Source: Cymbomonas tetramitiformis (Eukaryota > Chlorophyta > Pyramimonadophyceae > Pyramimonadales > Pyramimonadaceae). From it: 64,000 nt of DNA. The first letter of the stretch is position 1. Every line of letters starts with the position of its first letter. A program made the position numbers and the translations under genes. A model generated the notes under the pieces. It searched no databases. It was not told the DNA's origin and saw only the letters and a program-made list of their open reading frames with translations. The stretch is from positions 29,652-93,651 of the forward strand of contig LGRX02027067.1 of NCBI GenBank assembly GCA_001247695.2, in the 5' to 3' direction. Positions 25,175-61,310 of the stretch are shown here, in pieces.

Positions 25175-25191
25175 TTTATATAGTATAGGAG

Positions 25192-29049: not shown

Positions 29050-29119
29050 GTCTATACGTTAAATGTTGCCAATATCATATATTATATAACATATTACTGT
29101 TTTGGAAACATTCCCCGTG
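29043..29119. repeat. Hairpin repeat at the polymerase stop codon
   Basis: Starts TTTATAAGTCTATACG and continues CGTTAAATGTTGCCAATATC ... TGGAAACATTCCCCGTG, the same unit as the array at 12540-12960. The TAA of the polymerase gene lies in its first bases. Confidence 0.82.
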
Positions 29120-29147
29120 TATACTATATGTAAGACTATTATATAGT

Positions 29148-40108: not shown

Positions 40109-41946
40109 ATGTCCACTCAATTTGTTACTTTTCGCTGCCTTGAAACCGGGAATGTCGTTCGTGAAATTCCCATTGTTTGGCATCTTGGAGACCCTTTTGT
40201 GACTAGCGACACACTTTGCAATGTTTTTAGTCTTGACAAGAAAGAAGATCTTTCCGTCACCTCCGAGTACGATGACTCCGTTGCTTGCTCTTTGGACCTG
40301 TTTCCCGTTCACTCTGGCTTCTTGCACAATGTGTACGGCACTCCTACCGACGACAACATGCCAATCTTGGTAAGCGACAGCGAAAGCGATGACAGCGACG
40401 ATGAAGAAGACATTGTTTACACCGGCGAGTGCAAGACTCCCCGGTTCTCACCAAACACGAAGCCCAAGCCCACGGAGTCCGTCGCTTCGACAAACCTTTC
40501 CAAGTCCGACTCGACTTCCAGTCACGCCTCTTCTTTTAAGTGGCCCGCAGATTGCAAACGTGTGAACAAGGTCCCCTTCGACGTCGATGGCAATGTCACT
40601 TTTGGTCACCACATGTCCTCACCTCTTCCTAAACCAACCGGGAAGGGCGGTCTACCGCTGAACAAACTTGACTTCCATGTCACGAACCGTTCTTGGTCCC
40701 ACGCCTGCGCCACAACTTGGGCGGAGGTAACCCGACAAGATGCTGTCAAGGACTGCAACTCTCAGGTTCGACTTCAAAACTGCCTTGGAGAAAAACTTTG
40801 CAGGAATACGGAGTGCTCTTTCTTTAAAACCCATGACAAAGAGTTCGTTCAGACAAGTTCTCAACAACGTGGCAAACGCTCCGCTTCTGCTTTCCTCGGC
40901 GTTGAGGTATTTTAATCCCAAGGTTTTCCCGTACCCTTTCCCCACTTTTCCAGTAGGACCTTACGCTTTTCTGTTCTTCTTTCAGATTGAAGGCCCTCCA
41001 TGCAAAAAGTGTCAAGAACCCACGGAAGTTATTACCTGTGGTGCCCGGGCTACTTTGGTCCGCATCGACCTTCCCGCAGCCGAAGGCCACCTACTGCTCT
41101 TTAAACACGAAGGCACCCATGCCTGCCAACCCATGGATAAAAAGGGGAAGGCCGTTGTTTCCAAAGAAACCCAAGACGCCATCAAAGAAGCCCTTCCCTT
41201 TTTCGGTGGTCGCTTCACTTCCGAGAAGCTAAAGAACTCCGCCACAACGGTTGCCTTCGAGAAGATGCTTTCCTCTCCGGACGGCTCTCCCATCGACGTG
41301 TACAAGGTATCGCCCTATTTTTTTGTTACCTTTCCGTTATACGTCGGGGACATGTTATTCTTAATGCATGGTTCCATTTTAGGTGGCCCGCGAAATGCAA
41401 GACGCTCGCGCCGTCCGCGACGTGATGAAAGAACACCGTGCGACTCAACGTGCCCCCGAGCGTGCTGCTGACGACGAGGTCAAGGAAATGAAACGGATCC
41501 TGGACTCAAAGGGATACCGTACTCTTCTTTTCGACACCGCCCCTCTGAACTGGTTCATGTGCCCCCTGGACTTGCCGTGGTCCCCCGCGAAGATCATGCT
41601 GTTGATGGACCGCATTCTCGGTAAGCCTCCGTTCATCGGTTGCTACGCATGTTCTGATGGTGGCCACAGCTGCATTAACGGTCGCGTTGTCGAGAAGGTT
41701 GCAACGGTCGTGCCCGGAATTGGGTTGATAAAACTGGCAACCTTCGTCCTGCCGGCGGGTGAACGCGGTGTGGATGAGGAGAAGATGTGGCAAGGCATCG
41801 ACTACGCTTGCCGGACGGTGGCCATGGAGGACGCCGACTTCGCGAAATATCGAGACAAGGAGGTTTGGGTAAAGACCAACCCAAAAGGTGAGATCTGCTT
41901 TCGTCCCGTCGGTTTCGTCCGTGACGCGGGTGGCGGAGGCTGGATC
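40109..41946 (+). CDS. Three-exon transposase-like gene truncated by the Gypsy element
   Basis: Exons 40109-40906, 40986-41306 and 41383-41946 are joined by GT-AG introns of 79 and 76 nt, both phase 0. Exon 1 encodes an acidic Ser/Asp-rich linker and C-R-N-T-E-C. Exon 2 has C-K-K-C, then C-G-A-R-A ... H-E-G-T-H-A-C, resembling the FLYWCH/WRKY-GCM1-type zinc module before MULE transposase cores. Exon 3 is folded sequence with several Cys and His pairs but no certain DDE residue. The frame runs directly into the retrotransposon LTR at 41947, so the C-terminus is lost. It is the divergent partner of the methyltransferase gene at 8466-11996. It may be an N-terminal half of a MULE-type transposase; moderate doubt remains. 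Confidence 0.5.
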
Positions 41947-42372
41947 TGTGCTAGGAGGCAAGCACAAGAGCAAGAAAAACGGCTAAGTATAAAACGCAGA
42001 AGTACTCAGTACGGAGTACAGTAGGACCGATCAGAATGATGTTGATGTGAGGTGCCTAGACTGTTGTACGGAGTACTCAGTACAGTTGAGTTATGGAAAG
42101 AGTTCCTGAATGTATAAGAACTCTAAGAGTAACCCGTTTCGGGGGATGAACTGAACTGAAAAGTAAGACATAAAAGTAAAGAGCCGTAACTGCTGTATAT
42201 TGTGTATTGAAAGCATGCACTGATAGCAAAAGCATAACTATATAGATTTACGAAACCGAAGTCTTGTAGTTGACCAATCGTAAGCATACCTCGTGCGGTC
42301 GTTTAATAAGTGTAGAATAGTATAAGTCCGAAACCGTAAAGAAGAGAAGAAGCCTAGGTGTAGACTCCTACA
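41947..42372 (+). repeat. 5' LTR of the Gypsy element
   Basis: TG...CA ends. It differs from the 3' LTR by several substitutions and small indels, so insertion is not very recent or the LTRs come from two copies. It interrupts the gene that begins at 40109. Confidence 0.92.
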
Positions 42373-42957
42373 AAATGGTAATTAGTTCGTGTTTTCACGT
42401 TGCTTCCTTGTCTTTCTTGCGCAAATTCTGATCAACCCGCCCCGCCTTGTGCGATTAGTTAGAAAGTACTTGCACTACGAAATCGAGAATGCCTGTGCTC
42501 TCGCTCTTGTTGCGCGGTGGTGTGTGGGATTGATGGTTCCAGGTTGCTTGGAGCCGCGTCGGTGTGGAGAGATCTAGCTCGACGACAATCTTTTAAGGTG
42601 CGAGCGTTGCCTTAGTCCTAGCACGCATACACGCATAGCACGCATATCCGTGCTTTTGGACTCGCAGGTGCGGGATTTTGGAATCTTCTCCGTTTTTCGG
42701 CAAATCCGACCCTTCGCGGCGGAAGCGCTGCGCAAATTTTTCAATTTTGCGTAAGCCTTTGCTGAAATTCGGGGTTGGTTCGGGATTTCCCCCACCTTTA
42801 ATTTGGCCTTCTAGTCCCCCCTATTCGGGAATCTCCGCGCTTCGGCCGGTGTGCTTACTTGTGCTCGCGCGCAAGTGGCGTATTCCTGGGATCGGGTGCT
42901 GGTTGCCACACCAACCGCTTTTCGGTTGAATTGGATCTCACGCATAGCACGCATACT

Positions 42958-45172
42958 ATGCCCATGTATTCAGATGAAGAGGAATGCCTCGGTCGGTCGG
43001 GCCGGCGTGGGGGGGGTCGGGCCGGCGCCGCCCCCGGCTCAGCCGTGGGGTCCGGTCGGTCGGGGTCTCGCGCTGCGGGCCTGTCGGTTGGCCCAGGCTC
43101 TGGGGAGTTCTGGGGCGCAGCTGGCGGGTCAGACAGCCGGGATTGGCGCTCCCGTGAGAGGAGGGGGGGAGTGCGGCGCGCGCTTGCGCGCCAATACGGC
43201 GGTGAGGCCCTCGAGGTTACACCGGCGCGCACGCCCCTGAGAGCCCCTCCAGGGTTGTCTGGTGGGCCCCCCAGGGCCTCGCCACCAAAAGCCCCTTCAC
43301 CAGCGAGGGTCAGTGGAGCTGAGCCAGTGTCCGAGCTCGCATTGAGCTCGGCGCTACGGCAGCCGGCGCGCCGGAAGCGTGCGTCGCCCGAGGCTCCGGC
43401 ACCGCCGGCGGCAGGCGCCGGCTCCGGGTCGGACTCGGACCGCTCTGCTAAGGGGTTGAACCCCTCGGCAGCTCCCTTCTCCCCACTCCCTGCGTCCAGC
43501 AGGAGTGCGAGTAGTAGGGTCGTCCGTCGGGAACCGACGTCGGGACCGGCAGCGTCCTCCCTCTCTTCCCTCGTGGGGAGCGAGCAAGGGAATCTCATCA
43601 GTGCCCCAGGGCGCTTTGAGGTTTACCGAGCCAGTGACTGGAGTCCCCCGGCAGAAGGGGAGTCTGATGATGTCCGGCGCCCAGAGCAGCTAGACGTCGT
43701 CCAGTCACGGGGGCGCGAGTCTCGCATCCAGCCCAATCCGGCTTGGCGAGGAGAGCGACGTCAATCCATGCTCGCATTGGCCCTCCGTCAATGGAGCACC
43801 TGGGCGCTGGATTCAGCGCAACGACGTGCGAGAGTCTCCCCGCCATCTCGTCAGCGCGCAACAGCGCGGCTTGCGTGGGTCGCATGGAGGGCCAGGACGG
43901 ACCAGTCAGCGCATCAACGCGAGCTCCGGCGCCTGGCATTCCAAGCGTGGAATGACGTCACCCAACAGGTCGCCCAACTTCAGGGCCTGTTTGACAAAGG
44001 CAGTCGGCGCCGGGTCGAGTCCACTTTCGCAGCATGGCGCCAGCATGTCGTCCAGACACAGGGTCTGTGGCGCAGAGGCAGACGTCAAGCTGGAGCAGTC
44101 TTCATGGCATGGCACCAGCAGACGATGCTCGCCAAGGAGAGGAGCACCTGGTGGGTTGGAGCCCGGAGACACCGGATGACCCAGATGGGCAGGAGGTGTC
44201 TTCGCGAGTGGCGCCGGCTCCCCAGGACGACCCCAGTCAGCTCGGACTCGTCCCAGGGAACGAGTGCCCGCCGTCCGGTAAGGAAGGCGGGAACCTCATC
44301 CGGTGTCAGCTCTTGCTCGGATTCCGACCAGGAGTCTATGTGGCAGGACATCCGTCGAGGCCTAAAGCGCCTGGGGAAGGACCACCCGCTGTCAGGGCTA
44401 ATGTGGTTCCAGCTCAAGGACTATGGGCTCTCCGAGGACGGCGCTTATCGCCTGGAGATCCACCAGCAATCAGTCTCCGAGTCCAGGGTGTTGATGCAGC
44501 AAAAGCGCGAGGACCCTCACAACTCCCTTGAGAGGTGTAGATTCTCTGTCTTTGCCATCAACGCCGGCAGACCAGGGGAGCTGGTACGCCAAGGGGCGGA
44601 CCTCCAGGAGGTAAGGAGAGCGGTCGTCGCGGCCGTCAGAATGAGCGGCCGCACCCGGAAGTCGCACAGGGGTCTTAGGAAGTCAGGTGCAGCACCTCCG
44701 AGTTCCGCAGCCCCCGGTGGGAACTGGTCGAACCGGTTTGCTCCCCTCTCGTCCTCATCGGAGGAAGAGCATCCCGCGGAACGTCCGAGGCCCAGGACTC
44801 AGGCGCCTAAGCCGAGCGGCCCCAGTCGCCCGGTGCCTCGCACCCGGAAGCCCAGTCGAGCACCATCGGCCCCGCACCCCGGTCCGACTTCCTCAGGGAA
44901 CACGTCGTCGTCCCCGGAGTCCACTTCGAGCAGGAACAGTCAGGACCTGCAAGAGCTGAAGGAAGCCTGGCAGAAGGAGTGGCAAGCTCGGGAGGCGGCT
45001 GCCGAGGCTCGCCTGGAACAGCTGCCTCGGCAACTCCAAGAGAGTCAAAGAGCTGCCGAGGAGCGCAGGATCTCCGATCAGCGCGCTGCCGAGGAACGCA
45101 GGGTCTCCGAGCAACGCACTGTCGAAGAGCGCTGGGCTGCAGACCGGCTGGCCGCAGAGGCCCGGAGACTGC
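42958..45172 (+). CDS. Gag N-terminal region with Sfi1-like Trp/Arg repeats
   Basis: Starts at the ATG at 42958. The first 250 residues are Gly/Pro/Ser/Arg-rich and disordered. Residues between about 43745 and 44220 contain five to six repeats with A-(F/W)-x-x-W spacing of about 30-35 residues in Arg/Gln-rich helices, resembling the centrin-binding Sfi1 repeat. Then comes a Pro/Ser-rich tract and a long charged coiled coil (A-A-E-E-R-R units). The frame is lost at about 45170 and the coil continues in the +1-shifted frame until the capsid-like part. The frame formally ends at 45213. Confidence 0.6.
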
Positions 45173-45174
45173 CA

Positions 45175-47264
45175 GGCAGTTGGCTGTCGACGAGAGCGTC
45201 GCTCAGCAGGTAGCCGCTGAGGAGCGGCGAGCGGCAGCTGAGGCCCAGCTGGAGGAGAGGCTGCAGGCGGTCATAGAGTCACAAGTCCAAAGGCTCGCCC
45301 TGGTTCAGGCCTCGCCCCCAGGGCCCGTGGAGTCAGACGCTCGGGGGCCCTCAGCGGCAGCGTCGAGTCCGGTTCAGGAGACGCCCATCTCCCGAGAGGG
45401 ACATGAGCTGGTAGAGCCGACTTCCGTCGTCACCTGTGACGTCGAGAACCGGGGCGTTCAAAGCCCTCCGGAGGAGTCGCGCGCGGGCGTGACATCGCTT
45501 CCGCCGCACTCATGGGACTTTGTTTCCCTTCCTATACAAGTCTGCGACGCCCTCCGGAAACACGTGGTCGGGTATGCCAACCCGGGGATCGAAGCCCAGC
45601 GCCTGTTTTACGACGCCGCTCGTAGGTATCGCTCCCTGGGTCAGGTCGCCGGGTGCTTGCACCCTACCAGCCAGATCAGGCAATGCCTGAAGGCAAGAAT
45701 CTCGGACGAGGACAGGGTCCTCGGGGCCCAGGTGATTCACAGTCTCACGACGGCCTTGGCGTCCGTCGCAGAGAGCTGCGCTCGCTGTGGGTGCGGGCAC
45801 GAGGAGAGCCCGGTGCGTATGTGGGCGTGTCAGGCAAGCGCTAAGAAAGGTGTGGTAGCGTTCCTGAAAAAGGTGTACCTGCCGGTGTGTGGGTTTTGCG
45901 CCGCGGACGTGTGGCCCGGTGCTTTCGACCACTTTCCGGCTGTGATGCCACCTCCGCTTCCTACGGCGGCAGACACACCGGGAGACGGGGGGGGGATGGT
46001 CCCTCAACTGGAGCACTCGGAGCCAAACGAGCTTTCGGAGATGCCCGGTGCCGGCGGTCATGGTGGTCCTGGTGGCTCGGGGAGCGGTGCCCCTGGAGGG
46101 CCGGGAGGCCCGGGGAGTCCGGGCGAGGACCCTGGCGGCGATGGCGAGGACGGGGATGGTGACAGCCAGTTCACCTTCTCGTCTTCCTCTCGTTACAGGG
46201 AGCCCCGAAGCCATTACAGTCGTAAGGACGAGCAGCACGCTCTCAAGGAGGCCCTCAGAGCCATGGAGAAGGCAGTGGACAAATACCACACGGAGGTGGA
46301 GGGGTCGTCCCACGTCTTTGGTCGGCTCCTCCGATTTGTTCGGCAGGTCAAGGAGGTTCGGGAACTGGAGCCGGTGCGCTACGCCATGGAGATGGCGCGT
46401 CTGGGACCACTAGAGAGCGGGGGTGAGGAGAAGGTGTTGTCGGACCACTCCCTGCTGTCAGAGGTGGCCAGACACTGCTTCGGCAAACTCAGCTCCGAGT
46501 ACCGCGAGCTTTCTTCGGTGTTGACGGAGGCTCGGGAAGGTAAGAACCTCACCTTGGACGTCATAGTGGTTCCCTTGGCGCAACTGGTGATGCCCGACAA
46601 GGGGGAAATGGCGTCGATCGGTCCGTTCCTGCGTCGTGTGCGTCAAAGTCAGGACAGACAGACTCGCACGGTCCGCGAGTTCTGGGACGGGGTGCACCTT
46701 GCTCACGACATCGTGAGCATGCTGGCTGCCCACGAGCTCACCTCTCCGGTGCCGGAAGAGGAGCTGCTGGAGATATTCCTTACGGGCTTGATACCGGAGA
46801 TAAGGAGGAAGGTCTTCCTTATAGCCGAGAGGAAAGGCGCTTCGGTCCTGACTCTGAGCCGGACGGCCAGTAAAGGCCGCCACGAACTCCTGACTTGGGC
46901 CATAGAGGCCGAGCGGGAGTTGCGGCAGAGCCAGGATAAGACGAGCCGCTCGGTCCAGCTGCTGGCCCACGTAGATGTCACGGAGGAGCTGCTAGCCATG
47001 GCGACATCCGCTGGCGCTCCGACACCCACAGGGCAACGACTCGGCTCCCCAGAGTACGAGGGCTGCCGTCTGTGCAAAAGCATGGACCATTATGCCCGCG
47101 ACTGTCCGCAGGCGAGCCAGCGCCCGAAGGAGTGGGCCAAGTGCCTCCTGGAGGACACCCTGGCGTTAATAGGGGACGAGTCGGTGGAGGAAGCTTTGGC
47201 TGCCATCGGTTTGGATTTTGTCCAGGAGGACGCTCCCCAGCCCGGGGCGTCCTCCCCGCAGTAA
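45175..47264 (+). CDS. Gag capsid and zinc-knuckle region
   Basis: Continues the coiled coil (E-E-R-R-A-A-A-E-A-Q-L), followed by a C-x2-C segment (about 45780-45790), an acidic Gly-rich linker (46030-46160), a helical capsid-like domain (46230-46980), and near the end C-R-L-C-K-S-M-D-H-Y-A-R-D-C (about 47062-47103), a CX2CX4HX4C nucleocapsid knuckle. It has no ATG at its start, so it depends on the upstream frame. It ends at 47264, and pol follows in another frame. Confidence 0.75.
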
Positions 47265-47266
47265 AG

Positions 47267-50200
47267 GGCGCGGGCCCCGTCACTGCGGGGTCAGGGGGAC
47301 AAAAGGGCCCCGCGCCGGCGTCCACAGCGATGCAGGTGCTGCATGATAGGTGGAGAAGGTGTGGGAGACACCTTAGTGGCAGCGCCAGGCGCCACCTCAA
47401 GAGCCGGAGTCGAGTCGAGAGGTATGAGCAGGAAGGTTTAGACATGCTAGCCGCCACCCGCACGGAAAGCCCAGAGCCTCCTGAGCGGGAACAGGTCGAG
47501 CAGCGCGTCCAAAAAGAGCAGGCAAACTTCTGGAAGTCCGCCAGAACCCCAGCAACCGCCTCAGTTCCGCGTCCCGAGGAGCCGTGGGAGCTGCTCTGTT
47601 GGATCACCGGTGCGGACACCCGGGGTAAAAACCGGTCGAGCCACACAGTTGAGCCACGGGCAGTCTACCAACAGCACCTGGAGAACCAGGGGTCGGATGT
47701 TGCGAGAGTTCGCGGGCACTGGAAGTTCAGAGCTCCGCGTTTACCCCCCAGAGTTAGGAAAGCCTTTCAGGCCCAGCAGCCAAGTGCTCGCCTGCGTTCC
47801 GCCATCAGGGCGCTAGAAAGGTATCTAAAGCTGGAAGAGTCAGAGGTCCGGTCGGTCAAGTCCCTTGCGCTTTGGAGGGCAGGGCAAAGGCGGATGCGCC
47901 AGAAGCTTGGACCCACAACTAGTAAGCCCCAGTTGAATCGAGAAGAGTTAGATAAGCGCTTGAAGCGGCTCGTCAGGGTGCGCGAGTTCAATCGCCGACG
48001 CAAAGCCATCTTGGATCAGGAGTTCGGACGGTTTGTTCGCGTTGCCAAACCCAAGCCTGCCGAAGGAGAAGAACTCTCACCACCAGAGAGAACTTCAAAG
48101 CCCAGTCGGCCGTGGTTGACCCGAAGCAGGGCTCGCCAGGCTTTGGGCCCGAAACGCAGGCCATGGCTGACTCCTGAAGACAAGGCGCTTCGAACCTCTC
48201 GATTGCAGCGCAGGTACGAGTTAGAGGGTAGGGACCCGGCTTCTACCTCAGCAGAACGCCATGCGGACTTCCACGCCTTCGTAAAGGAGGAGTTGGAAAG
48301 GGAGAATAGGGAACTTCAGCAAGACAATGAGCTGATGCACCGGGACGAGCAAGTCAGAAAGCACATAGCGGCTAAACTGGCTGCAGCGTCAGTCCAAGTC
48401 GCAGTGTCCCCCCCAGACTTCCCAGAGCGCAGCGCAGTTCAGAAAGCAGTCGCCATCGGCCTGCTGGCAGACGCGTGTACTTACTGCCTCCCGGACTGTG
48501 ACTCCGACGCAGAAACGTCAGTCACCCGCCTGGACTGCATAATGCAGGACGGCGATATCAGTCCGAGCTGGTGTGAGTCCCTGGCAGCGGTGTCCTCGAT
48601 GGGAGCGCGCCCGAGGAGTTTCGACAGGCACAGTCGCACACCGACGTTGTTGCTGTTTTGGGCCTGGATTGCGGGCGTCAGAGGCAAGGTGTTAGTGGAT
48701 TCGGGAGCATCCACCAATATCATCGCAAAGAGTACACTGCAGAGGCTCTCCGGCGTCAAGCCGGTGCGCCACGAGCAAGCCATGCGGGTTCGAGTGGCTG
48801 ACGGCACCACATATGATGCTAACTCCTGCATCAGGCCCAAGCTCCTTGCTGAGACGTCGAAGGGGTCTTACGGCCAGCAGGTTGAGCTTCGGGTAATGCC
48901 ACTCGACCTCAAAGTGGATGTCATCCTGGGGGGTCCTTGGCTGGCGAACCTTTCCCCGGTTACGCTGGATTATAAGAACTGGGGTTCGGTCCGGTTCACC
49001 AAGGGCAGAGAAGAGGTCGTCATCACCGGCTGTTCGCCGGGATCACCGGACCCCAGTCGGTCCAAGGACACGGCAATGGCACTGGTACAGGGAGTCCTTT
49101 TGAGCCAACGTCGGGCTCGCCGGGACCTGCGGACCCTCCGAAACAGAGAAGAGCAGGCTTTCGTCGTCTACCTCGGCCCCGATGGGGCTTTTGGCGCGTT
49201 GGCCTGCAACAAGGGGGGGGGAGACTCCGACGAAGATTCCCCCAACGATGTTGTAGCAGGCCTGGCGTCAGAACCCTCCTCCGGGTCCGAGGATGGTGAA
49301 GTCAGCGTGCGTCCCAGCGCAGCGGTGCCGGACGGAGCTGAGGAGTCTGAGGGGCCGGGAGGGTTGGTCTCGGACAGCTCCGAGTCCGGCTACAGTGACG
49401 TGGAAGGAGCATGTCATTTGCAGAGAGTAGGGGCGGTGGTCGAGGATATTAGGCCACAGGGATTTGCGAGCACGGTCGACGAGGCCGGGGATCACCCTGA
49501 CCCTCTCAGCTTTTTCGCTAGCAAACAGGAGGCGAGCGGAGCATTTGCGTTGCTTCCGCCAGCGGTGCGTAGGCAGGCGATAGAGGATCACGCGGCCGGG
49601 AAGCCACCCACCTGGCACGCGCAGGCAGCCGCGGCGCTCCAGCAGGGCCGGGGTCTGGTCGCGGAGCGACGACCCCGAGCACGGCGTAAGCAAGTGCGTT
49701 GGCGTGACCAGGTCGCAGCAGTCGGTCAGCCTGGTGCTGAAAGCGGCCCCTCCACCGAGCAGCCGCCGGGACCAAAAGTCCCCACCGTCCCGAGCCCTCA
49801 GAGTCAGAAGTCGCGAGCCTCGGCACCAGTCGTGCCGCCAGACACTACCCCGCCGCCAGCTCTGCAGACCACAGACCCGCCGGTACCGGCCGTCCCGCCA
49901 AGCACTACCTCGCCGCCAGCCCCACAGACTGCTCAGGCCTCCCCGGAACCGCCGGAGGACGAGATAGACGAGGCGGTGTCGCCGGAAATCTGGCAGCAGC
50001 TTAGGGACCTGGAAAAGGAGTTCGCAGATGTCATTTGCACAGAGCTGCCGGAATCAGTCCAGTCAAGGGAATTCAAGTCCGGCGTCGGGCTCAGGCCAGA
50101 TTGGAATGGGAACGCCTTGCACCGGCGAGGGTACAAGCTGTCGCAGGAGGAGTTGCGGCAACTCCGGCAACAGCTAGATGAGCTCTTAGCCAAAGGGTAC

Positions 50201-53200
50201 ATACGACCCTCGGCCTCTCCGTGGGGCTGCCCTGTGCTGATGGTCCCCAAGCCGAGTAATCCCAAGGAGTTGCGTCTAGTCATTGACTACAGACAGATCA
50301 ATGAGATCACAGTCAAGGACAAGTACCCCCTCCCGGATGTCCAGAGTCTCCTAGATGATCTACAAGGGGCTACCGTCTTCTCTACGATGGATGCCCTTTG
50401 GGGATTTTGGCAGGTCCCTATGAAAGCAGAGGACGTGGAGAAAACCGCAATGACTACGCACTTTGGAGCGTACGAGTGGTTGGTCATGCCTATGGGATTG
50501 TCAAACTCCCCAAGTACCTGGCAAAGGATGATGCAACAGTACCTCGGGCACCTACCCTTTTGCAGAGTATTTGTAGATGACATCATGATTTTCTCGGCTG
50601 AGGTTCCGGGTAAGAGCGCCCATGAGGTACACCTCGACCACCTCCGCCAGGTCCTGGAGGCATGCCGAAAGAATTCAGTCTACCTCAAAAAGTCGAAAGT
50701 CAAATTGTGCAAGCGATCAGTCCGGTTCCTAGGGCATGTGGTGGATCGGGATGGATGTCGTCCACAGCAGGATAAGGTTGCGTCGGTGCGCGATTGGCCA
50801 GACCTAGAAACTGTCACACACGTGCGACAGTTTCTGGGCATGTGTGGCTTCTACCGGAGGTACATCCAGAACTTCGCAGATATCGCGTACCCGTTGACCC
50901 GCCTCACCAAATCCGGCGTGGACTGGACCTGGGGCGAGAATGAAAAGGCAGCATTTAAACAGCTGAAAACTGCCTTGATCTCCTCCCCAGCCTTGGCCCT
51001 ACCCGATCAAAAGGGTGCAGCAGACGGCTCCAGACCCTTTTTTGTGCAGACAGATGCCAGTGGAGTAGCACTAGGGGGTGTACTCATGCAGGATCAGGGA
51101 CGAGGCTTACAGCCCTTGGCCTTTGAAAGCCGGCAGTTCTCCAGCGCTGAGCAGAACTATCACGCTGGGGAACGGGAGCTTTGTGCCATCCATCACTGCA
51201 CCACGGTCACCTGGAGACATTATCTGATTTTCACATCATTTAAGCTCATGGGAGACCATAAACCCCTTCAGTGGCTCTTCGCCCCGGCTAGGGAGCTCAG
51301 CCGACGTCAGGCTCGCTGGTACGAGGACCTGGTAGAGGTAGGAGTCCATCAGATGGAGCACGTGCCAGGGCGCTGTTTAGTAGTACAAGACGCGCAGTCC
51401 CGGCGACCAGACTATCAGGAAATGTCAGCCAGAGAAGGGTTGAAGGAAAAAGGGATTGTGGATCGCGCCACGGATGGGCCCAGAGACTCCGCACCGGCAG
51501 GCAAGGGGTCCGAAGAGGACGAGGATCCTACCTCTGGCCTCGGGGCAGTGGATTGCACCACCGATGGATCTGATGGACCCGAGTACTCTGAGCCGAAAGG
51601 CAAGAGATGCGAAGGGGACGAGGATCCCACATCTGTCTTAGGCGCCACCTTCGAGTATAGTGATTCCGAGGACGAGTCCTTCCCTCCCACCAGTCCGGCA
51701 CCGGTCATTGGTGAGCTCACCCATCTGAATGGGCTCACGTGGGTAGAGTCGCCGGCCCTTTGGTTGGACGCAGCTGCCACCCTAGCAGTAGGCGAGAAAT
51801 CCTTGAGGGATGCCGAATCGCTAGCAGTCATGACCAGAGCAGACCGAGCTAGGGAACAGGCCACAGCAGAAGTCCAGAGTCACCCGAAGTTCCCCCACCC
51901 TGAGGCCCAGAGTCATCCAAAAGCAGCCGGAAAGGAACCTGAGCCCGTTAAGCCCCCAGAAAGTAGCTCCCACTACGACCAGGTCGTAGATCGCCAGGAC
52001 TGGAAGCTGATCAGGGAGCGCTTTGAGGAGATAGCAGCCCAGTACGGGGTGTTTGACGTTGACGCGTGTTGCGACTCCATGGGCGTTAACCGGCAGGTTG
52101 ACACCTATTGGACCGATTGCTTGAAGGAAAAGTGGCGCGGGAAACACGTTTGGTGCAACCCCCCTTACACGAAGGATTCCGACTTGATAGAAAGAATTCT
52201 TCGGCATTTCCTTGCTGAGTGGCGCGCCGATCCGGAAAACACCTCGGCGATGTTCCTTCTGCCAGACTATGACGCCCCCTGGAGACGGTTGATTCACCCC
52301 AAGTATGGGCTTCATCCGGTCAAGGTCTTTGACACGAAGGACGAAAAAGGGCGTCCCAACCACCTCTTCGAGTCCCCTGATGGAGGTCGACCCCCGCTGC
52401 GCTGGCCGGTCCTTCTGGTGTGGGCCCCAGCAGCCAGCAGGGCAAAGCCCCGAGCGCCGCCTGCGCGAAAGGACAATGAGGCAGAATCCGACGAACCTTT
52501 AGTCACTACAGGGGTTGCAGCAAGGGCCAGGGCGGCATCAGGCCCACTGAAGGCTGATGAGTTCGTCCGCGCCTTGCAAGCGGAATACGAACGCAGCCAG
52601 TACCTCGGCTCGTTGAAGGAGGAACTGATCGCAGCCCCACATCAGAGGACAGACACATTTCGCATGGTAGACGACATGATATGGCGAGTGGCAGAAGGGC
52701 GGTATCAGCTAGTGCTAGCTCAGGATTCCCCCCACAGAGAGCTGGTGATGCGCGAAGCACACGAGTCCCCAGCAGCAGGGCACACAGGAAGGGATAAGAC
52801 ACTGGACAGAGTATCCCGTCGCTTTTGGTGGCCACGCATGAGCAAGGATGTCACCGACTGGTGCAAATCCTTCGTTGTGTGCCAACAGACCCGGCCACGC
52901 AACGGGTATCCAGACGGTCAGCTTAACCCCCTGCAAGTCCCAGTAAGACTGTGGCAAGTGGTTAGTATCGACTTCGTCACTGGGCTGCCCCGCACAGAGC
53001 GAGGGTACGACGCGTTTGCTACCTTCACGGACAAGTTGTCCAAGATGGTGCACGTAGTTCCCATGCTTTACGCTGACAGCTCAGCTGCACAGATCGCGCG
53101 CATGTATTTCGACCAAGTGTGGCGTTTGCACGGCGCTCCCATGAAGATCGTCTGTGATCGGGACTCCCGCTTCAGGGATGAGATGCATCTCGAGCTACAT

Positions 53201-53584
53201 CGGTTGATGGGAGTCCAGGTTGCCTCTACCACGCCGTACCACCCTCAAGGTGATGGGCAGGCAGAGCACACAAACCACACGGTCGAACGCATGTTGCGCG
53301 CGTACGTCGACGCCAACCAGCACGATTGGGATTTATGGTGTACCCCGGTCGAGTACGCCATTAATGACTCTCGTTCCGCCGTCACGGGATTCACCCCTTT
53401 TGAACTGACGTATGGTCACGCTCCGGCCTCTCAGCTGGATTTCTTCGTGGAGGCAGCACTTGCATCACGGAGAGGCCGAGCTAAGGGGGGGAGGGGCGCA
53501 GCAGTAAAAAAGGGTACAGCCCACGAGACAGCCCGCCAGTTTGTTCGCGCCAGTTGCAGCTCGCTAGGGAGAAGCTGCTCTTAG
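47267..53584 (+). CDS. pol: Pol: protease, reverse transcriptase, RNase H, adenine-methyltransferase domain, integrase
   Basis: A retropepsin D-S-G-A-S lies at about 48698 with L-G-G-P-W at about 48928. Reverse transcriptase spans about 50160-50760, with F-V-D-D (about 50570) as the catalytic motif and L-R-L-V-I-D-Y. RNase H follows (about 51040-51420; Q-T-D-A-S-G, E-R-E-L, D-H-K-P-L). A spacer then contains the methyltransferase domain (see separate entry). Integrase has the H2C2 finger (52751-52890) and DDE residues S-I-D-F (about 52970), C-D-R-D (about 53154) and G-Q-A-E (about 53255). Its frame ends at 53584 inside the integrase C-terminus, where a one-base shift leads into the next frame. 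Pol and Gag are in different frames, and the shift at 47264 may be programmed. Confidence 0.88.
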   Translation, partial: GAGPVTAGSGGQKGPAPASTAMQVLHDRWRRCGRHLSGSARRHLKSRSRVERYEQEGLDMLAATRTESPEPPEREQVEQRVQKEQANFWKSARTPATASVPRPEEPWELLCWITGADTRGKNRSSHTVEPRAVYQQHLENQGSDVARVRGHWKFRAPRLPPRVRKAFQAQQPSARLRSAIRALERYLKLEESEVRSVKSLALWRAGQRRMRQKLGPTTSKPQLNREELDKRLKRLVRVREFNRRRKAILDQEFGRFVRVAKPKPAEGEELSPPERTSKPSRPWLTRSRARQALGPKRRPWLTPEDKALRTSRLQRRYELEGRDPASTSAERHADFHAFVKEELERENRELQQDNELMHRDEQVRKHIAAKLAAASVQVAVSPPDFPERSAVQKAVAIGLLADACTYCLPDCDSDAETSVTRLDCIMQDGDISPSWCESLAAVSSMGARPRSFDRHSRTPTLLLFWAWIAGVRGKVLVDSGASTNIIAKSTLQRLSGVKPVRHEQAMRVRVADGTTYDANSCIRPKLLAETSKGSYGQQVELRVMPLDLKVDVILGGPWLANLSPVTLDYKNWGSVRFTKGREEVVITGCSPGSPDPSRSKDTAMALVQGVLLSQRRARRDLRTLRNREEQAFVVYLGPDGAFGALACNKGGGDSDEDSPNDVVAGLASEPSSGSEDGEVSVRPSAAVPDGAEESEGPGGLVSDSSESGYSDVEGACHLQRVGAVVEDIRPQGFASTVDEAGDHPDPLSFFASKQEASGAFALLPPAVRRQAIEDHAAGKPPTWHAQAAAALQQGRGLVAERRPRARRKQVRWRDQVAAVGQPGAESGPSTEQPPGPKVPTVPSPQSQKSRASAPVVPPDTTPPPALQTTDPPVPAVPPSTTSPPAPQTAQASPEPPEDEIDEAVSPEIWQQLRDLEKEFADVICTELPESVQSREFKSGVGLRPDWNGNALHRRGYKLSQEELRQLRQQLDELLAKGYIRPSASPWGCPVLMVPKPSNPKELRLVIDYRQINEITVKDKYPLPDVQSLLDDLQGATVFSTMDALWGFWQVPMKAEDVEKTAMTTHFGAYEWLVMPMGLSNSPSTWQRMMQQYLGHLPFCRVFVDDIMIFSAEVPGKSAHEVHLDHLRQVLEACRKNSVYLKKSKVKLCKRSVRFLGHVVDRDGCRPQQDKVASVRDWPDLETVTHVRQFLGMCGFYRRYIQNFADIAYPLTRLTKSGVDWTWGENEKAAFKQLKTALISSPALALPDQKGAADGSRPFFVQTDASGVALGGVLMQDQGRGLQPLAFESRQFSSAEQNYHAGERELCAIHHCTTVTWRHYLIFTSFKLMGDHKPLQWLFAPARELSRRQARWYEDLVEVGVHQMEHVPGRCLVVQDAQSRRPDYQEMSAREGLKEKGIVDRATDGPRDSAPAGKGSEEDEDPTSGLGAVDCTTDGSDGPEYSEPKGKRCEGDEDPTSVLGATFEYSDSEDESFPPTSPAPVIGELTHLNGLTWVESPALWLDAAATLAVGEKSLRDAESLAVMTRADRAREQATAEVQSHPKFPHPEAQSHPKAAGKEPEPVKPPESSSHYDQVVDRQDWKLIRERFEEIAAQYGVFDVDACCDSMGVNRQVDTYWTDCLKEKWRGKHVWCNPPYTKDSDLIERILRHFLAEWRADPENTSAMFLLPDYDAPWRRLIHPKYGLHPVKVFDTKDEKGRPNHLFESPDGGRPPLRWPVLLVWAPAASRAKPRAPPARKDNEAESDEPLVTTGVAARARAASGPLKADEFVRALQAEYERSQYLGSLKEELIAAPHQRTDTFRMVDDMIWRVAEGRYQLVLAQDSPHRELVMREAHESPAAGHTGRDKTLDRVSRRFWWPRMSKDVTDWCKSFVVCQQTRPRNGYPDGQLNPLQVPVRLWQVVSIDFVTGLPRTERGYDAFATFTDKLSKMVHVVPMLYADSSAAQIARMYFDQVWRLHGAPMKIVCDRDSRFRDEMHLELHRLMGVQVASTTPYHPQGDGQAEHTNHTVERMLRAYVDANQHDWDLWCTPVEYAINDSRSAVTGFTPFELTYGHAPASQLDFFVEAALASRRGRAKGGRGAAVKKGTAHETARQFVRASCSSLGRSCS
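51964..52440 (+). other. Phage-Dam-like N6-adenine methyltransferase domain within Pol
   Basis: Between RNase H and the integrase finger is a compact domain: F-D-V-D-A-C-C-D-S-M (about 52055), then Y-W-T-D and L-K-E-K-W, then V-W-C-N-P-P-Y (Asn-Pro-Pro-Tyr at 52157-52168), and later F-L-L-P (about 52255). This series of D-x-D-A ... W ... (v)NPPY ... LLP is that of the phage Dam family (PF05869-type). NPPY is the catalytic motif of adenine-N6 methylation. No such domain is usual in Gypsy Pol. The motif is intact. Confidence 0.72.
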
Positions 53585-55209
53585 CTCAGCAGCAACAGAT
53601 CGCCCAGTACGACGCGCGTCACAGGTCCAGGAGTTACGCAGTAGGCGATGAGGTTTGGGTGGATGCCACGCACCTCACCCAGCCGGGCGACCGCGGGTTG
53701 CACAAGAAATTGCTTAAGAAGCGCCTTGGGCCCCTTCGGGTGCTGGGAGTCTTTCACAGCGACAGGCAGATGGCCCTTCCCGCGAGCGATAGAGGCGCAC
53801 CGTCGGCCTATAGGTTGCAGACGCCTAAGCAGTGGAAAGTGCACGATGTGTTTACAGTGGACCGGCTTTCGCCAGTAGAGTCGAGCAGCCGCTTCGTTGA
53901 GAGAGCTAAGGAGATTCCCCCTCCTCCGTTGGACGTCAGCGGGCGCAAGGAAACCCACGTCGAGAGGGTGGAGCGTTCGCGCACGCGCCAGCGCCAGGGC
54001 AGGAGGTGGACAGAGTACCTGGTCAAGTGGACAGGAATGCCCCGCAGTGTGAACGAGTGGAAGACCCGAGAGGATCTGGAGTGGGACGGAGCCGGCAGGC
54101 CCGGTGTTCCCAACCGAGCGTTGTTGGAGTTTGAGAGGATCGAGGCTAAGAGAGTGGAGCGAGAGAAGCTTAGGGTCCGTAAGAGACGCGACGAGTCCGC
54201 AGGAGCGGTATGGACCACGCTATCGGAGGAGCTCAAGGTAGACGGCGCAATGCCATGGGTGCCAGAGGAGAGGTTTGATGAGGAAGTAGGAACTTTCGCG
54301 AGAGTATCTGCTCAGAGCACCCTGCCGCCAGTCAACAGAGCCGCAGCACTTGAGAAGGAGCCAGTCGGCCAGTCTAAGATTCTTGTATTGTTTTGTGGGA
54401 CCGGGTCAGTCGAGAGGCAGTTCACTAAGCAATTTCCCAACAGCGAAGTAGTTGCTGTAGACATTCAGCCCAAGTGGGGCCCCACACATTGCGAGGATAT
54501 CATGCGATGGGACTATCGACAGTTCAGACCAGGACACTTCGACGTAGTCTGGGCTAGCCCACCTTGCACAGAGTACAGCCAAGCGAAGACGGTAGGCATC
54601 CGAGATTTGCGTGCTGCGGACAGGCGAGTTCGTAGGACATTGGAGATCATCCGGTACTTGAGGCCCGAAGCATACTTCATTGAGAACCCGAGGGGAAGAG
54701 AGCCCCACGGGTTGCACACGCGTCGCTGCATGAGCAATCTACCAGCTCCGCACCTCGTCACGTACTGCAAATACGGGACCGCATACAGGAAGCCCACGCA
54801 CATCTGGACCAACGTTCCGTTGCGCACACCCTTGCGAGTGTGCGATTCCGATACGCCTTGCGAGTTCTTCCGGCAGCAGAAAGTAGCGCAAGGAGGGCGC
54901 GCGATGAGAGCCGGAGGTGTGTTCGCGAAGGGCATGGGAGCGCGAGAGAATTTGTATGGGATTCCGTCAGCACTGTTAAAACAGCTTTTCCACAACCTGA
55001 CCCTACATGAAGAGGTGCATGCGTTCCTGTCTGAACCGCTTGTCAGGGAGGATCTGAGCGAGAAGAGCGTTTTAGTCCAGTCAGCTGTTGTTGAGAGTGA
55101 CCCGCCCGAGTTTGAGCCGGAACCGATAGCGTTAGCGGGAGTGCGAGCGGAGGTGACGATCATACCTGAGGGCGGATGGGAATCTGACGCGAGTGGTCTT
55201 AGCGATTGA
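53554..55209 (+). CDS. Pol C-terminus: integrase tail, chromodomain and C5-cytosine methyltransferase
   Basis: Overlaps the end of the previous frame by 31 nt and continues the integrase C-terminal region (R-S-Y-A-V-G-D-E-V-W-V, the GPY/F-type module with L-G-P-L-R-V). A chromodomain follows (E-T-H-V-E-R-V ... Y-L-V-K-W-T-G ... N-E-W, about 53948-54090), which in this clade guides integration to marked chromatin. After a charged linker comes a complete small C5-methyltransferase: F-C-G-T-G-S (about 54391), V-D-I-Q, W-A-S-P-P-C-T-E-Y-S (about 54550-54580), I-E-N-P (about 54681), H-I-W-T-N (about 54800). Natural Gypsy Pol stops after the chromodomain; the extra domain is collinear with 22243-22878. 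Confidence 0.82.
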   Translation: MQLAREKLLLAQQQQIAQYDARHRSRSYAVGDEVWVDATHLTQPGDRGLHKKLLKKRLGPLRVLGVFHSDRQMALPASDRGAPSAYRLQTPKQWKVHDVFTVDRLSPVESSSRFVERAKEIPPPPLDVSGRKETHVERVERSRTRQRQGRRWTEYLVKWTGMPRSVNEWKTREDLEWDGAGRPGVPNRALLEFERIEAKRVEREKLRVRKRRDESAGAVWTTLSEELKVDGAMPWVPEERFDEEVGTFARVSAQSTLPPVNRAAALEKEPVGQSKILVLFCGTGSVERQFTKQFPNSEVVAVDIQPKWGPTHCEDIMRWDYRQFRPGHFDVVWASPPCTEYSQAKTVGIRDLRAADRRVRRTLEIIRYLRPEAYFIENPRGREPHGLHTRRCMSNLPAPHLVTYCKYGTAYRKPTHIWTNVPLRTPLRVCDSDTPCEFFRQQKVAQGGRAMRAGGVFAKGMGARENLYGIPSALLKQLFHNLTLHEEVHAFLSEPLVREDLSEKSVLVQSAVVESDPPEFEPEPIALAGVRAEVTIIPEGGWESDASGLSD

Positions 55210-55545: not shown

Positions 55546-55930
55546 AGCACTCCGAGGAGGCGGTGAAGGTTTAAAACCTTTCCTCCGGGCCGGCATCCCG
55601 AGAACTGTCAGGTAATTGGCAAACCTATTGTCATCCTCTGTAAGTGTACCGTGTTGGGAGGTTTAAAACCTTGAGCGTGGTAATGGATGTGAGACCTTGA
55701 GCCTTGGGGGAGCCTGGTAGTGCAGATGGCAGACCGGTGAGAGGCCGACCCTTGTGCTTAAGAGGTCGATCTCCTTATTGCGGTGTGTCTTGGGAAGTGT
55801 AATGTCATCCCAGACAACAGGCGGCTGAGACCTGTATAATCATTCAGAGCAACAGTAGAAGATCTGTATAAAACCTTTACTGGTCCGACGTGGTCAGCGT
55901 GGACGTGACCTTCCCTAAGGGGGGGGGAGT

Positions 55931-56358
55931 TGTGCTAGGAGGCAAGCACAAGAGCAAGAAAAACGGCTAAGTATAAAACGCAGGAGTACTCAGTACGGAG
56001 TACAGTAGGACCGATCAGAATGATGTTGATGTGAGGTGCCTAGACTGTTGTACGGAGTACTCAGTACAGTTGAGTTATGGAAAGAGTTCCTGAATGTATA
56101 AGAACTCTAAGAGTAACCCGTTTCGGAGAGATGAAATGAACTGAGAATTGTAACATAAAAAGTAAGAGCCGTATCCGCTGTATATTGTGTATTGAAAGCA
56201 TACACTTGAAAGCAAAAGCATAGCTATTAAGATTTACGAAACCGAAGTCTTGTAGTTGACCAACCGTAAGCATACCTCGTGCGGTCGTTTAATAAGTGTA
56301 GAATAGAATAAGTCCGAAACCGTAAAGAAGAGAAGAAGTCAAGGTGTAGACTCCTACA
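55931..56358 (+). repeat. 3' LTR of the Gypsy element
   Basis: Ends GACTCCTACA directly before a Copia coding fragment. A purine-rich tract lies immediately upstream. Confidence 0.92.
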
Positions 56359-56878
56359 CTTTCACGGTATGCTCATTGACTGGTGGTCAAAGAAGCAGAA
56401 ATCATGCACTGCCCTTCACTCTACAGAGGCAGAGTACGTTGCCATGTCAGAAGCCTGCACCTCCGCCCTGGCCATCTACAACACACTGACAGAGTTCTTC
56501 CCCTCAGCTGAGCCCATCACCATCAATGTAGATAACTCAGCAGTTCAGACTTTGGTCACTCAGCGGGCGCTCTCTACTAAGCTCAAACACATTGCGGTTC
56601 GGTACCACGCGGTTAGGAACTGGTGTCAGGGGCCCCTCAGGAAGTTTATCCCGGTCTGGATTCCGACCGATGACAATCAGGCTGACATTTTCACTAAAGC
56701 CCTTCCTACCACAAAACACGGGGTTCCCATTATCGACAAGTTCACTGCCCGCCTCTTGGATATTAAGGACCGGGGTGTTAAGCTGAAGGAGAGACTACAA
56801 GCAGCTGCAGCACAGAAGCTACATGCCCAGCAGCAGCAACTACAACAACAACGACGACAGGACGAGATATTGTCTTAG
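56359..56878 (+). pseudogene. Copia/Ty1 RNase H C-terminal fragment
   Basis: The frame is open directly from the Gypsy LTR edge and reads I-D-W-W-S-K-K-Q, then T-E-A-E-Y-V-A-M-S-E, N-V-D-N-S-A, H-I-A-V-R-Y-H and D-I-F-T-K, the ordered RNase H and tail motifs of Copia elements (S-x-x-E-A-E-Y, I-x-x-D, K-H-I-x-x-x-x-H, A-D-I-x-T-K). All upstream Copia domains are missing, and the break coincides exactly with the end of the 3' LTR. A Gln-rich tail follows. I cannot delimit a Copia 3' LTR downstream. Confidence 0.85.
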
Positions 56879-58394: not shown

Positions 58395-58620
58395 TATATA
58401 CTTCACAGTACATCAATATCGGTTAGAACCTACCTATGAAAATCAATACCAGTCGACAACTCGGTATCAGCACATATCAACATCTGTCGATAACTCGGTA
58501 GGACATATCAATATCGGCCGACAAGTCATTAGCTCATATCAATATCTGTCGACAACTCAATAGCTCATATCAATATCTGTCGACACCAATTTTTAATATA
58601 TCAAAATGTGTCGATATCTT
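58395..58620. repeat. Degenerate 36-bp tandem repeats (ATATCAATATCTGTCGACA)
   Basis: About six units, ATATCAATATC(T/G)G(T/C)CGACAA-CTC-(A/G)-TAGCTC type, with increasing divergence at both ends. 58621-59480 contains no gene that I can support. Confidence 0.75.
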
Positions 58621-59696: not shown

Positions 59697-60920
59697 TCAC
59701 TTCACAGGGAGTTCCAACCAACATGATTCAGTAGAGATCTGGCACGATGGACTCAGACTCAACGCATATGCTTTTGGCGACCTTAACGATAAATATAAAG
59801 GGTCGGCAGTGTCAATGACAAGACCCAATCGGTGGTTGGCAGGCACATCATGGGATACAAATGATAGTTCCGTGTGAAGACTGTGTGCAAAGGCAAAAGC
59901 AGCTGTGGCATTGTCCATTACTGGCGGTATATGACCATATCCATCATCAGATGCATTTGAGATATGTTCGGAACCTTTAGACCATGTCCAAACACCGTGC
60001 GTCAGCAGTAAGCCGGTGCCAGACTCGTCAATGTCGAAAAGGTATGCGACGAGCTGGAATTGATTCTGTGTTGATGTTAAGACCTCTAACTTGAGGGAAG
60101 GAATTCCGCACAGGTGCACCCCACCAGCAAGGATTTCGGAGTACATTGTCATACCGTGTCGGAAGTCAATCTGGTCCATCGAGATCAGCACATCTTCCGT
60201 GGGATCGAATGCATTCCTAATCCATTTCGACAGACGATCCGCCACAGTGGCATATGCGATATCCGCAGCATTCGTTGAGGAAGCAAGCGTATCTGCTCCT
60301 GAAATGATGGTGTAGCCGGCTCCGGATGAATCGAGGAAAAAGCTCAAATGCGAAAGATTGCCACTTGGCCACCGCTGCAGCCGCGGACGATCCCAGGTTG
60401 TGTTTAGCTTGGGAAATGTCCGATTGCGTATTTCTTGCGTCCACTCTCGGTTTTCAGCCTGCTTCTGCAGAACCAATGTTGTGCAGTTGTTCATAAACGC
60501 GGTTGAAGGATCGGAGTCATTATTAAGGTGGCCGGTGCACGCTGCAGAGATATTTTCCGGATGATTCTGCAACAAAGGTGAATCGTCACTCTCATTGGGC
60601 AGATCCAATTGGAAGTGCAGTCGCCTGAAATTGATCTGAGGCGAGGGGTATGTCCCGAGAGCATGGTACACGGGAGTAGTTGACTCTCCGGTGTCGACTT
60701 GGACATTGAATGCTGACTCAGCATCGATGCCATTGGTGCTGTTCCGAAGCCAGCGGTCAAACCAGCGGTGCACGGTATCCCACACAAAGTTATCTGGTGA
60801 AAACGGCCCGCCGTAATTGAGGAACCCACCGGACTCTGCTGAGAGGTGCTGCGCTATACTGAGATCCAATCGTTTGGGTCCGGTGAGGCCGCCGCAGAAC
60901 TTCACCACCTGATTCGGTTG
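59697..60920 (-). CDS. X-Pro dipeptidyl-peptidase-like (PepX C-terminal) protein, partial
   Basis: A frame of 437 codons is open to 61010, but the first part (60921-61010) is made of a 56-bp tandem repeat, so the gene part is taken from about 60920. It contains F-D-R-W-L-R-N-S-T-N-G-I, the end of the alpha/beta hydrolase cap, and then a beta-rich domain of the PepX C-terminal jelly-roll type (G-T-G-L-L-L-T-H-G, residues with L-G-L-V-I-D-T-A-D-P). Such enzymes cleave X-Pro dipeptides or esters (CocE/NonD family), often secreted. The catalytic core is not seen in this frame; it is missing or in exons upstream. Many N-x-S/T sites suggest a secreted protein. A 68-codon frame follows at 59483-59686. 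Confidence 0.55.
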   Translation of the reverse strand, partial: QPNQVVKFCGGLTGPKRLDLSIAQHLSAESGGFLNYGGPFSPDNFVWDTVHRWFDRWLRNSTNGIDAESAFNVQVDTGESTTPVYHALGTYPSPQINFRRLHFQLDLPNESDDSPLLQNHPENISAACTGHLNNDSDPSTAFMNNCTTLVLQKQAENREWTQEIRNRTFPKLNTTWDRPRLQRWPSGNLSHLSFFLDSSGAGYTIISGADTLASSTNAADIAYATVADRLSKWIRNAFDPTEDVLISMDQIDFRHGMTMYSEILAGGVHLCGIPSLKLEVLTSTQNQFQLVAYLFDIDESGTGLLLTHGVWTWSKGSEHISNASDDGYGHIPPVMDNATAAFAFAHSLHTELSFVSHDVPANHRLGLVIDTADPLYLSLRSPKAYALSLSPSCQISTESCWLELPVK

Positions 60921-61310
60921 AAGCGTGACATCCTGAAATAGGCAGCCGAACCACTCAGCACAATGCGTCATACCCAGCAAATGACATCCTGAAATCTGCA
61001 GCCGAACCACTCAGCACAATACGTCATACCCAGCAAATGACATCCTGAAATAGGTAGCAGACCTCAGCTGTCGTCATACCCAGCAAATGACATCCCTGGA
61101 ATCTGCAGCCGAACCACTCAGCACAATGCGTCATACCCAACAAATGACATCCTGAAATAGGCAGCCGAACCACTCAGCACAATGCGTCACTACAGCAAAT
61201 GACATCCTGAAATAGGCAGCCGAACCACTCAGCACAATGCGTCATACCCAGCAAATGACATCCTGAAATAGGCAGCCCAGCCACTCAGCACTACAATGCG
61301 GCATACGACT
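60921..61310. repeat. 56-bp tandem repeats joining the peptidase-like gene
   Basis: About seven imperfect units of 56 bp, TGACATCCTGAAATAGGCAG then CCGAACCACTCAGCACAATG, CGTCATACCCAGCAAA. The first unit overlaps the coding frame of the peptidase-like gene; 56 is not a multiple of three, so expansion shifts the frame. Confidence 0.85.

Follow-up and report, generated by a model that had tools for sequence, protein, structure and literature searches.

A Dam-family adenine methyltransferase domain within the Pol of a Ty3/Gypsy chromodomain retrotransposon of Cymbomonas tetramitiformis and its kinship with the Dam domains of DIRS-type elements

Introduction

Why would a retrotransposon carry, within its own polyprotein, an enzyme predicted to methylate adenine? 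This question was raised by a 64,000-nt stretch of the genome of the alga Cymbomonas tetramitiformis, referred to here as the window (G000:C18039:29652-93651 in the searched assembly of 851.7 Mb and 25,745 contigs). In the window, a 14.4 kb long terminal repeat (LTR) retrotransposon of the Ty3/Gypsy type hosts a predicted N6-adenine methyltransferase domain of the Dam family between the ribonuclease H (RNase H) and integrase domains of Pol and, further downstream, a C5-cytosine methyltransferase domain. In DIRS elements, pol has the order reverse transcriptase (RT)/RNase H/methyltransferase (PMC2685390, PMC3783388; here and below, statements on published work refer to the accessible parts of the sources cited). 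The analysis led to the reading, to which we assign roughly an even chance, that a Ty3/Gypsy chromodomain family with one polyprotein received its Dam by a swap from a DIRS-type element and uses it to methylate the element's own DNA.

Results

Dam-family domain in Pol

The Pol open reading frame (ORF) extends from stop to stop over 2214 aa (46940..53584; ORF list and hmmscan; this and all features of the element described below lie on the plus strand). Within it, hmmscan found the Dam family PF05869 at residues 1684-1752 (E 2.4e-8; 34.3 bits against a cut-off of 28.1), and the domain as a whole was placed at about 51983..52429. A methyltransferase match in a profile search was the test set in advance by a sequence-only reading of this stretch, which had described a Dam-like motif series at 51964..52440, in frame in Pol between RNase H and the H2C2 finger and with NPPY intact. 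The match was obtained, and hmmscan recovered the series in that frame and place; the stretch itself was right, although base 51964 is out of frame and the translation from it is full of stops. The catalytic motif of the Dam family is [DNS]PP[YFW], which stands behind a strand of the methyltransferase fold. In the window, the NPPY tetrapeptide is located at 52157-52168, and the AlphaFold2 model of the domain has a confident methyltransferase fold (predicted local distance difference test, pLDDT, 88) with a strand preceding NPPY. The Dam piece alone matched the PHROG_111 DNA methyltransferase (E 5.5e-13), and the score for the phage N-6-adenine methyltransferase TIGR01712 stayed under the equivalog cut-off (27.6 bits vs 97.05). 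The presence of a Dam-family methyltransferase domain with an intact NPPY in this region of Pol was confirmed.

Adenine methyltransferases led the structural matches of the Dam model, and the nearest solved fold was that of an RNA cap adenosine methyltransferase (the structural alignments were a second look at Foldseek's own matches and cover the families listed there). A Dam acting on RNA would modify the transcript of the element itself, methylating an adenosine such as one close to the cap, in favor of translation, packaging or escape from RNA surveillance. We regard this explanation as unlikely: the RNA enzyme may just be the nearest relative with a solved structure, and the search of solved structures by sequence gave no convincing member of the Dam family (six matches at E 0.12-0.93). 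Moreover, phage DNA N-6-adenine methyltransferases were the named leaders among the viral-model matches, with E down to 5.7e-9, far ahead of the PCIF1-like match at 2.4e-4, and the C5 domain paired with Dam appears from its modelled fold to be a DNA enzyme.

Structure of the host element

The order protease-RT-RNase H-integrase of Ty3/Gypsy elements was found in Pol by Pfam. The retropepsin-like aspartic protease is located at 48665..48937 (PF13650, 27.3 bits, cut-off 24.3; Pol residues 576-666), RT at 50243..50740 (PF00078, E 2.8e-30; residues 1102-1267), RNase H at 51029..51334 (PF17917, E 1e-27; residues 1364-1465), the integrase H2C2 zinc-binding domain, scoring over its cut-off, at 52727..52900 (PF17921, E 9.3e-21; residues 1930-1987) and the integrase catalytic core (rve), scoring under its cut-off, at 52955..53245 (PF00665, E 3.4e-4, 21.3 bits vs 32.6; residues 2006-2102). 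In the scan of four ORFs of the element, the tyrosine recombinase characteristic of DIRS elements (PF00589) was not listed up to E 1. As expected of the Ty3/Gypsy type, the element has LTRs with TG...CA ends (5' LTR, 41947..42372; 3' LTR, 55931..56358), which were found by blastn against each other and are identical in 404/428 columns, and a polypurine tract, read from the sequence at 55917..55930, which adjoins the 3' LTR. A gag-like region of two overlapping open frames (42802-45213 and 44811-47264) occupies 42802..47264 and includes a zinc knuckle at about 47061-47111 (zf-CCHC, 18.9 bits, under the Pfam cut-off of 20.8).

A second open frame, 53485..55209, is out of frame with Pol in the window copy and contains, by hmmscan, a chromodomain at 53956..54081 (PF00385, 28.3 bits, cut-off 25.1), whose location after integrase is a chromovirus trait, and the C5-cytosine methyltransferase domain at 54340..55044, with its FCGTG, SPPC and ENP motifs (PF00145, PHROG_757 and structural matches). 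The C-terminal C5 domain of the sequence-only reading does exist, although in the window copy it is separated from Pol by this change of reading frame. No target-site duplication was seen in this copy (GGATC precedes the 5' LTR and CTTTC follows the 3' LTR; flanks 41932-41946 and 56359-56372), and the differences between the two LTRs cluster in the middle of the LTR; because of these two features, the window copy may be a recombinant.

C5 methyltransferases are recognized by the catalytic motifs PC and ENV/ENP, and both motifs and fold place the second domain in this class. SPPC and ENP were kept in 18/18 rows compared (the window and 17 of the 22 relatives with a C5 match), and the best sequence match was PHROG_757 "DNA methyltransferase" (E 1.4e-17). 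The PF00145 score of the window was 21.9 bits against a cut-off of 22; among the relatives, P0003 (22.9) and P0020 (24.5) exceeded the cut-off, P0011 (16.7) remained under it, and no match was listed for P0029. The structural model was modest (pLDDT 66), and the 50 structural matches listed for it were DNA cytosine methyltransferases, one being named only as a putative DNA modification methyltransferase; by sequence, no solved relative was found at E up to 10.

Dam as a trait of the family

Two protein searches, with 29 and 18 hits of which three were common to both, gave 44 distinct relatives. All those with an organism label belong to Cymbomonas, and the remaining records carry no organism. 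RT, Dam, integrase, chromodomain and C5 were present in one protein, always in this order, in 19/44 relatives; the others had no match for one or more of the five, being shorter, partial or without C5, which was matched in 22/44. One labelled protein, P0043 (CYMTET_39951, C. tetramitiformis), shares 97-99% identity with the window over the Dam end, integrase, chromodomain and C5.

The genome search with PF05869 returned 7257 first-look candidates, and the 150 that were scored, Gypsy and DIRS types together, were all over the cut-off. With the window Dam DNA as the query, 1537 first-look candidates were obtained; 40 were scored, the window included, and all showed 99-100% identity across 520 or more of the 522 bases, so a recent spread of the window element's family is indicated. 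The 39 further copies bear out the expectation of the sequence-only reading that other members of the family carry Dam. Since most of the genome Dam loci were too short for a whole Pol, longer stretches were fetched for the full-frame test. In four of five longer Gypsy copies (L121-L124, not L120), a single open frame of 2494-3016 aa contained the RT, Dam (NPP) and C5 (SPPC) motifs. L120 is rearranged: its C5 match lies near Dam on the opposite strand, its longest frame stops soon after Dam, and it has no integrase match. Six sister copies of the window element (L125-L130), taken from the 39 others scored for the window Dam DNA, were 98.4-99.3% identical to it in the aligned pieces. Dam, integrase, chromodomain and C5 shared one frame in all six, and the RT motifs belonged to the same frame in four, L128 and L130 being broken before Dam. 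RT, Dam and C5 motifs were therefore found in one frame in 8/11 full-length genome copies. As all six sister copies are open between integrase and chromodomain, the frame break at this place appears to be private to the window copy, being either a mutation or a read error.

The frame-broken window copy, with no visible target-site duplication, could by itself suggest an artefact, i.e., an insertion that happened by chance in a single copy, or a chimera of Gypsy and DIRS sequences made during assembly. Such an origin is extremely improbable with 150/150 scored genome Dam matches over the cut-off, 39 further copies at 99-100% identity and a domain order that remains constant in divergent families and in the organism-less records. 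It was rejected on the recurrent order in 19/44 relatives, the 8/11 one-frame copies and the many copies in the genome.

Conservation of the Dam domain

The catalytic motif was compared in an alignment of 39 Dam domains, comprising the window and the 38 relatives with a match spanning >120 residues. The tetrapeptide was NPPY in 30, NPPF in five and SPPY in one, and it was lost in three; FDVDACC was unchanged in 30/39. The losses concern P0027 (SLSS), P0028 (SLSS) and P0029 (SPPC), which have kept the rest of Dam, and P0029 stands for 10 member sequences. Catalysis may therefore be dispensable in some lineages, and these losses suggest that some do without it. P0029 has retained the SPPC motif of C5 together with a lost Dam NPPY, and the three proteins offer a natural contrast for the role of catalysis.

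Retention of Dam for its fold and not for its chemistry, as a DNA/RNA-binding or spacer module between RNase H and integrase, would agree with the 3/39 domains that lost the tetrapeptide and kept the remaining sequence. This is quite an improbable explanation in our opinion, because NPPY or NPPF is present in 35/39 and the unchanged FDVDACC in 30/39, and a spacer would need neither.

Identity to the window was averaged in 40-residue bins over nine chosen divergent Pols. The linker preceding Dam reached 10-27% and Dam itself 39-61%; behind Dam, the value fell to 22% in the adjoining bin, rose to 45% in the following one and stood at 56-73% in integrase. Dam is conserved between fast-evolving linkers. 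The ratio of nonsynonymous to synonymous substitution (dN/dS) was estimated from 25 copies, rows with a stop, short matches and the DIRS type being left out, with pairs binned by the proportion of synonymous differences (pS). For Dam it was 0.10 at pS 0.02-0.1 (140 pairs) and 0.05 at pS 0.1-0.3 (2 pairs), these values being biased low because the copies were drawn by Dam score, which favors intact Dams. The corresponding values were 0.14 (3 pairs), 0.10 (3) and 0.004 (4) for RT, from the youngest pS bin onward, 0.24 (8 pairs, pS under 0.02) and 0.12 (128 pairs, pS 0.02-0.1) for integrase, and 0.23 (3 pairs) for C5. Between families, pS was saturated (0.76-0.90), and the proportion of nonsynonymous differences (pN) was 0.23 for Dam, 0.25 for RT, 0.25 for integrase and 0.33 for C5.

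Kinship with the Dams of DIRS-type elements

The same genome contains a second set of Dams (L081-L086, L090, L094 and L111-L119), which itself comprises at least two divergent groups. No RT, RNase H or integrase of the window type was found in the loci of this second set. Most of its Dams show 36-45% identity to P0067, a metagenome protein, and 34-44% to the window. In P0067, Pfam finds Dam alone, and an RNase H-like tail before Dam was read by eye. In L116, a frame of 760 aa (1669-3951) contains RT and Dam by Pfam; RNase H gave no Pfam match between them and was assumed from the known DIRS layout. The overlapping downstream frame (L116:3914-4741) had no Pfam match, and neither had its L082 counterpart. 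Against the tyrosine recombinase PF00589, the downstream proteins of L118 and L083 scored 21.8 and 15.3 bits, both under the cut-off of 27.1 (two of the four downstream frames tested). The set was called DIRS-type because its layout matches that of the DIRS elements of PMC2685390 and PMC3783388. The sequence-only reading had labelled the domain "phage-Dam-like", which is correct at the family level, but the nearest relatives detected belong to these retrotransposons from the same genome.

When the whole Gypsy Pol was compared with the whole DIRS-type Pol, Dam alone aligned (39% identity over 159 aa, 108 bits). Outside Dam, the comparison gave at most 21.9 bits, with the best RT piece at 20.8 bits (E 0.84). 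In both types, Dam is located at the RNase H end of Pol.

The fetched loci yielded 44 Dam pieces for the first tree; six with a stop (L090, L092, L095, L096, L117 and L120) were dropped, and identical ones were merged to give 27. From these 27, the 49-row tree took all 11 DIRS-type rows and, of the Gypsy type, L087 alone. To them were added the window, P0067, 12 of the 38 aligned Gypsy relatives and 23 rows called phage-type. This last label was chosen here for PF05869 proteins that come from metagenome collections, a few of which bear the name in their source. Phage-type, DIRS and Gypsy Dams each formed one group, and Gypsy plus DIRS were separated from phage-type with 100/99 support. P0067 was grouped with DIRS (95/85); an earlier FastTree, built before the DIRS rows were available, had placed it beside the Gypsy Dams at 0.988. 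A larger tree contained 98 phage-type and IMG/VR rows, all picked by likeness to the Gypsy profile (79 of 80 IMG/VR loci yielded a Dam ORF, and 75 had sufficient length), and Gypsy plus DIRS remained one set at 100. From these sequence comparisons, the Gypsy and DIRS-type Dams appear to share their origin.

The Dam family is otherwise met in phage-type and metagenome proteins, and this would fit an independent capture of the Gypsy Dam from a phage or giant virus, with the likeness to DIRS arising from convergence or shared host composition. The unrooted tree consists of three groups, and the root decides: the apparent sisterhood of the Gypsy and DIRS Dams depends on a root on the phage side, which is a choice, and a reasonable one because the phage-type group is by far the widest. 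Independent capture is nevertheless very unlikely, considering that the Gypsy and DIRS Dams form one set at 100 against the 98 phage-type rows and that P0067, itself from a metagenome, also joins DIRS.

Other features of the window

Upstream of the retrotransposon, an ORF region at 25189-30458 contains a DNA polymerase B match (PF03175, E 1.4e-37) and, behind it, an rve integrase match that stays under the cut-off (PF00665, 28.8 bits), and an ORF at 19813-22098 has ResIII and PriCT_2 matches; together they look like a Polinton or Polinton-like virus. A 54-base unit with a TGTCA start and a TGACAA end occurs at 39039-39675 in five scattered copies, 76-100% alike. An open frame at and after the end of the 3' LTR (56312-56878) resembles a Copia RNase H by eye and has no Pfam match. 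Clustered repeats are located at 58466-58616 and 60926-61291, with 31-base and 56-111-base spacing, and a minus-strand ORF at 59700-61010 has a PepX_C match.

Discussion

The polyprotein of this family has the order protease-RT-RNase H-Dam-integrase-chromodomain-C5 methyltransferase. In the reading that we prefer, Dam most likely came from a DIRS-type element and entered Pol between RNase H and integrase by a domain swap, an event that would predate the split of the Gypsy families now seen in Cymbomonas. Transfer from DIRS to Gypsy is the likelier direction because the papers give Dam as a DIRS trait, and the Gypsy Dam was met here only in Cymbomonas and in organism-less records. Built into Pol, Dam would be at hand both in the particle and during integration and could reach the new cDNA. 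Its role may be adenine methylation of the element's newly made DNA, either while still in the particle or shortly after insertion. The C5 domain would methylate cytosines, the chromodomain would guide integration, and the advantage may lie in new copies passing for properly marked host DNA. DNA self-marking was ranked first among the possible roles since Dam in Pol would reach new cDNA and since methylation of cDNA has already been considered: de Mendoza et al. discussed it for C5 retrotransposons, with an analogous function for adenine methyltransferases (PMC5890265).

Several results weigh against this reading. Next to the RNA-enzyme fold, the lost catalytic motifs, the choice of root and the sampling by Dam score described above, the dN/dS of Dam reached 0.33 in the youngest bin (pS under 0.02, 111 pairs). 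The Gypsy Dams as a group of their own had a support of 93/85 in the 49-row tree and 54 in the larger one, and long branches occur among the phage-type rows and in P0067; because of these values and branches, the swap is hard to date or polarise. The DIRS rows of the trees came from this genome, with none from fungi or animals. The statement of the sequence-only reading that the element "would write both" N6-methyladenine (6mA) and 5-methylcytosine (5mC) went too far as worded, given the RNA enzyme as the nearest fold, the 3/39 motif losses and the broken frame of the window copy, although its sister copies are open at that place.

Comparison with known systems shows how the parts were distributed before. 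The DIRS elements share with the window element a PF05869 Dam behind the RT/RNase H part of Pol, 39% identical to the window Dam over 159 aa; they have no protease, DDE integrase or LTRs and use a tyrosine recombinase (PMC2685390, PMC3783388), whereas the window element has LTRs, a protease, an H2C2 plus rve integrase, a chromodomain and a second methyltransferase. KnitGypsy-Dnmt3 of Klebsormidium nitens is likewise a Gypsy Pol with a C5 DNA methyltransferase, under purifying selection (PMC5890265), but its C5 domain is of the Dnmt3 type and no Dam is mentioned in the accessible part of that source, whereas the best match of the window C5 is the phage family PHROG_757. SymbioDIRS-Dnmt3 and SymbioLINE-Dnmts of Symbiodinium also carry a C5 methyltransferase, in Pol or in an upstream ORF; they are DIRS or long interspersed nuclear elements (LINE), not Gypsy, and have one methyltransferase type (PMC5890265). 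Phage Dams (PF05869, TIGR01712) resemble the window Dam in fold, in NPPY and in passing the Pfam cut-off, but they are stand-alone proteins, mostly of 140-200 aa among the phage-type matches, and the TIGR01712 score of the window is far under the cut-off. A Chlamyvir-related chromovirus, also Ty3/Gypsy with a chromodomain, was described from Cymbomonas itself (PMC10675990), but the main text of that paper, as accessible, has no word starting with "methyl". Finally, Sola1 of Ectocarpus is an algal mobile element whose methyltransferase, of N4C or N6A type, has been proposed to act on the element's own sequence (PMC12477816); it is a DNA transposon of another architecture, in which a ParB plus DNA methyltransferase protein is encoded as a separate gene.

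Among the matches listed, no Gypsy Dam and no element with Dam and C5 together was found in the accessible open-access literature, in agreement with the view of the sequence-only reading that a Gypsy element with this pair is undescribed; one ambiguous passage directly follows text that gives Dam as a feature of DIRS and C5 as one of Gypsy and DIRS, and for this reason it was not read as claiming a Gypsy Dam. Each half of the pair has a precedent, Dam in DIRS and C5 in Gypsy; Dam in Gypsy and both putative writers in one element were not met among those matches. The fullest form of our proposal is held more tentatively, as a possibility that we would sooner doubt than assert: a single polyprotein with two DNA mark writers, for 6mA and 5mC, and a chromatin reader would mark its own new copies, its 6mA writer coming from another retrotransposon order, and it would be the first Gypsy element with Dam and the first element of any kind with the pair.

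Why DIRS elements carry Dam and why some retrotransposons carry C5 are open questions usually studied apart. Here the two putative writers join in one Gypsy polyprotein with many nearly identical copies in one alga. As the Cymbomonas genome has already been nanopore-read (long-read assembly of 914.3 Mb in 35,945 scaffolds; PMC10675990), 6mA and 5mC could be searched for directly on the young copies. A Dam common to two retrotransposon orders whose Pols otherwise do not align would exemplify the transfer of an accessory enzyme, as a module, from one class of element to another, and the family would be well suited to the question of why mobile DNA encodes marking enzymes of its own.
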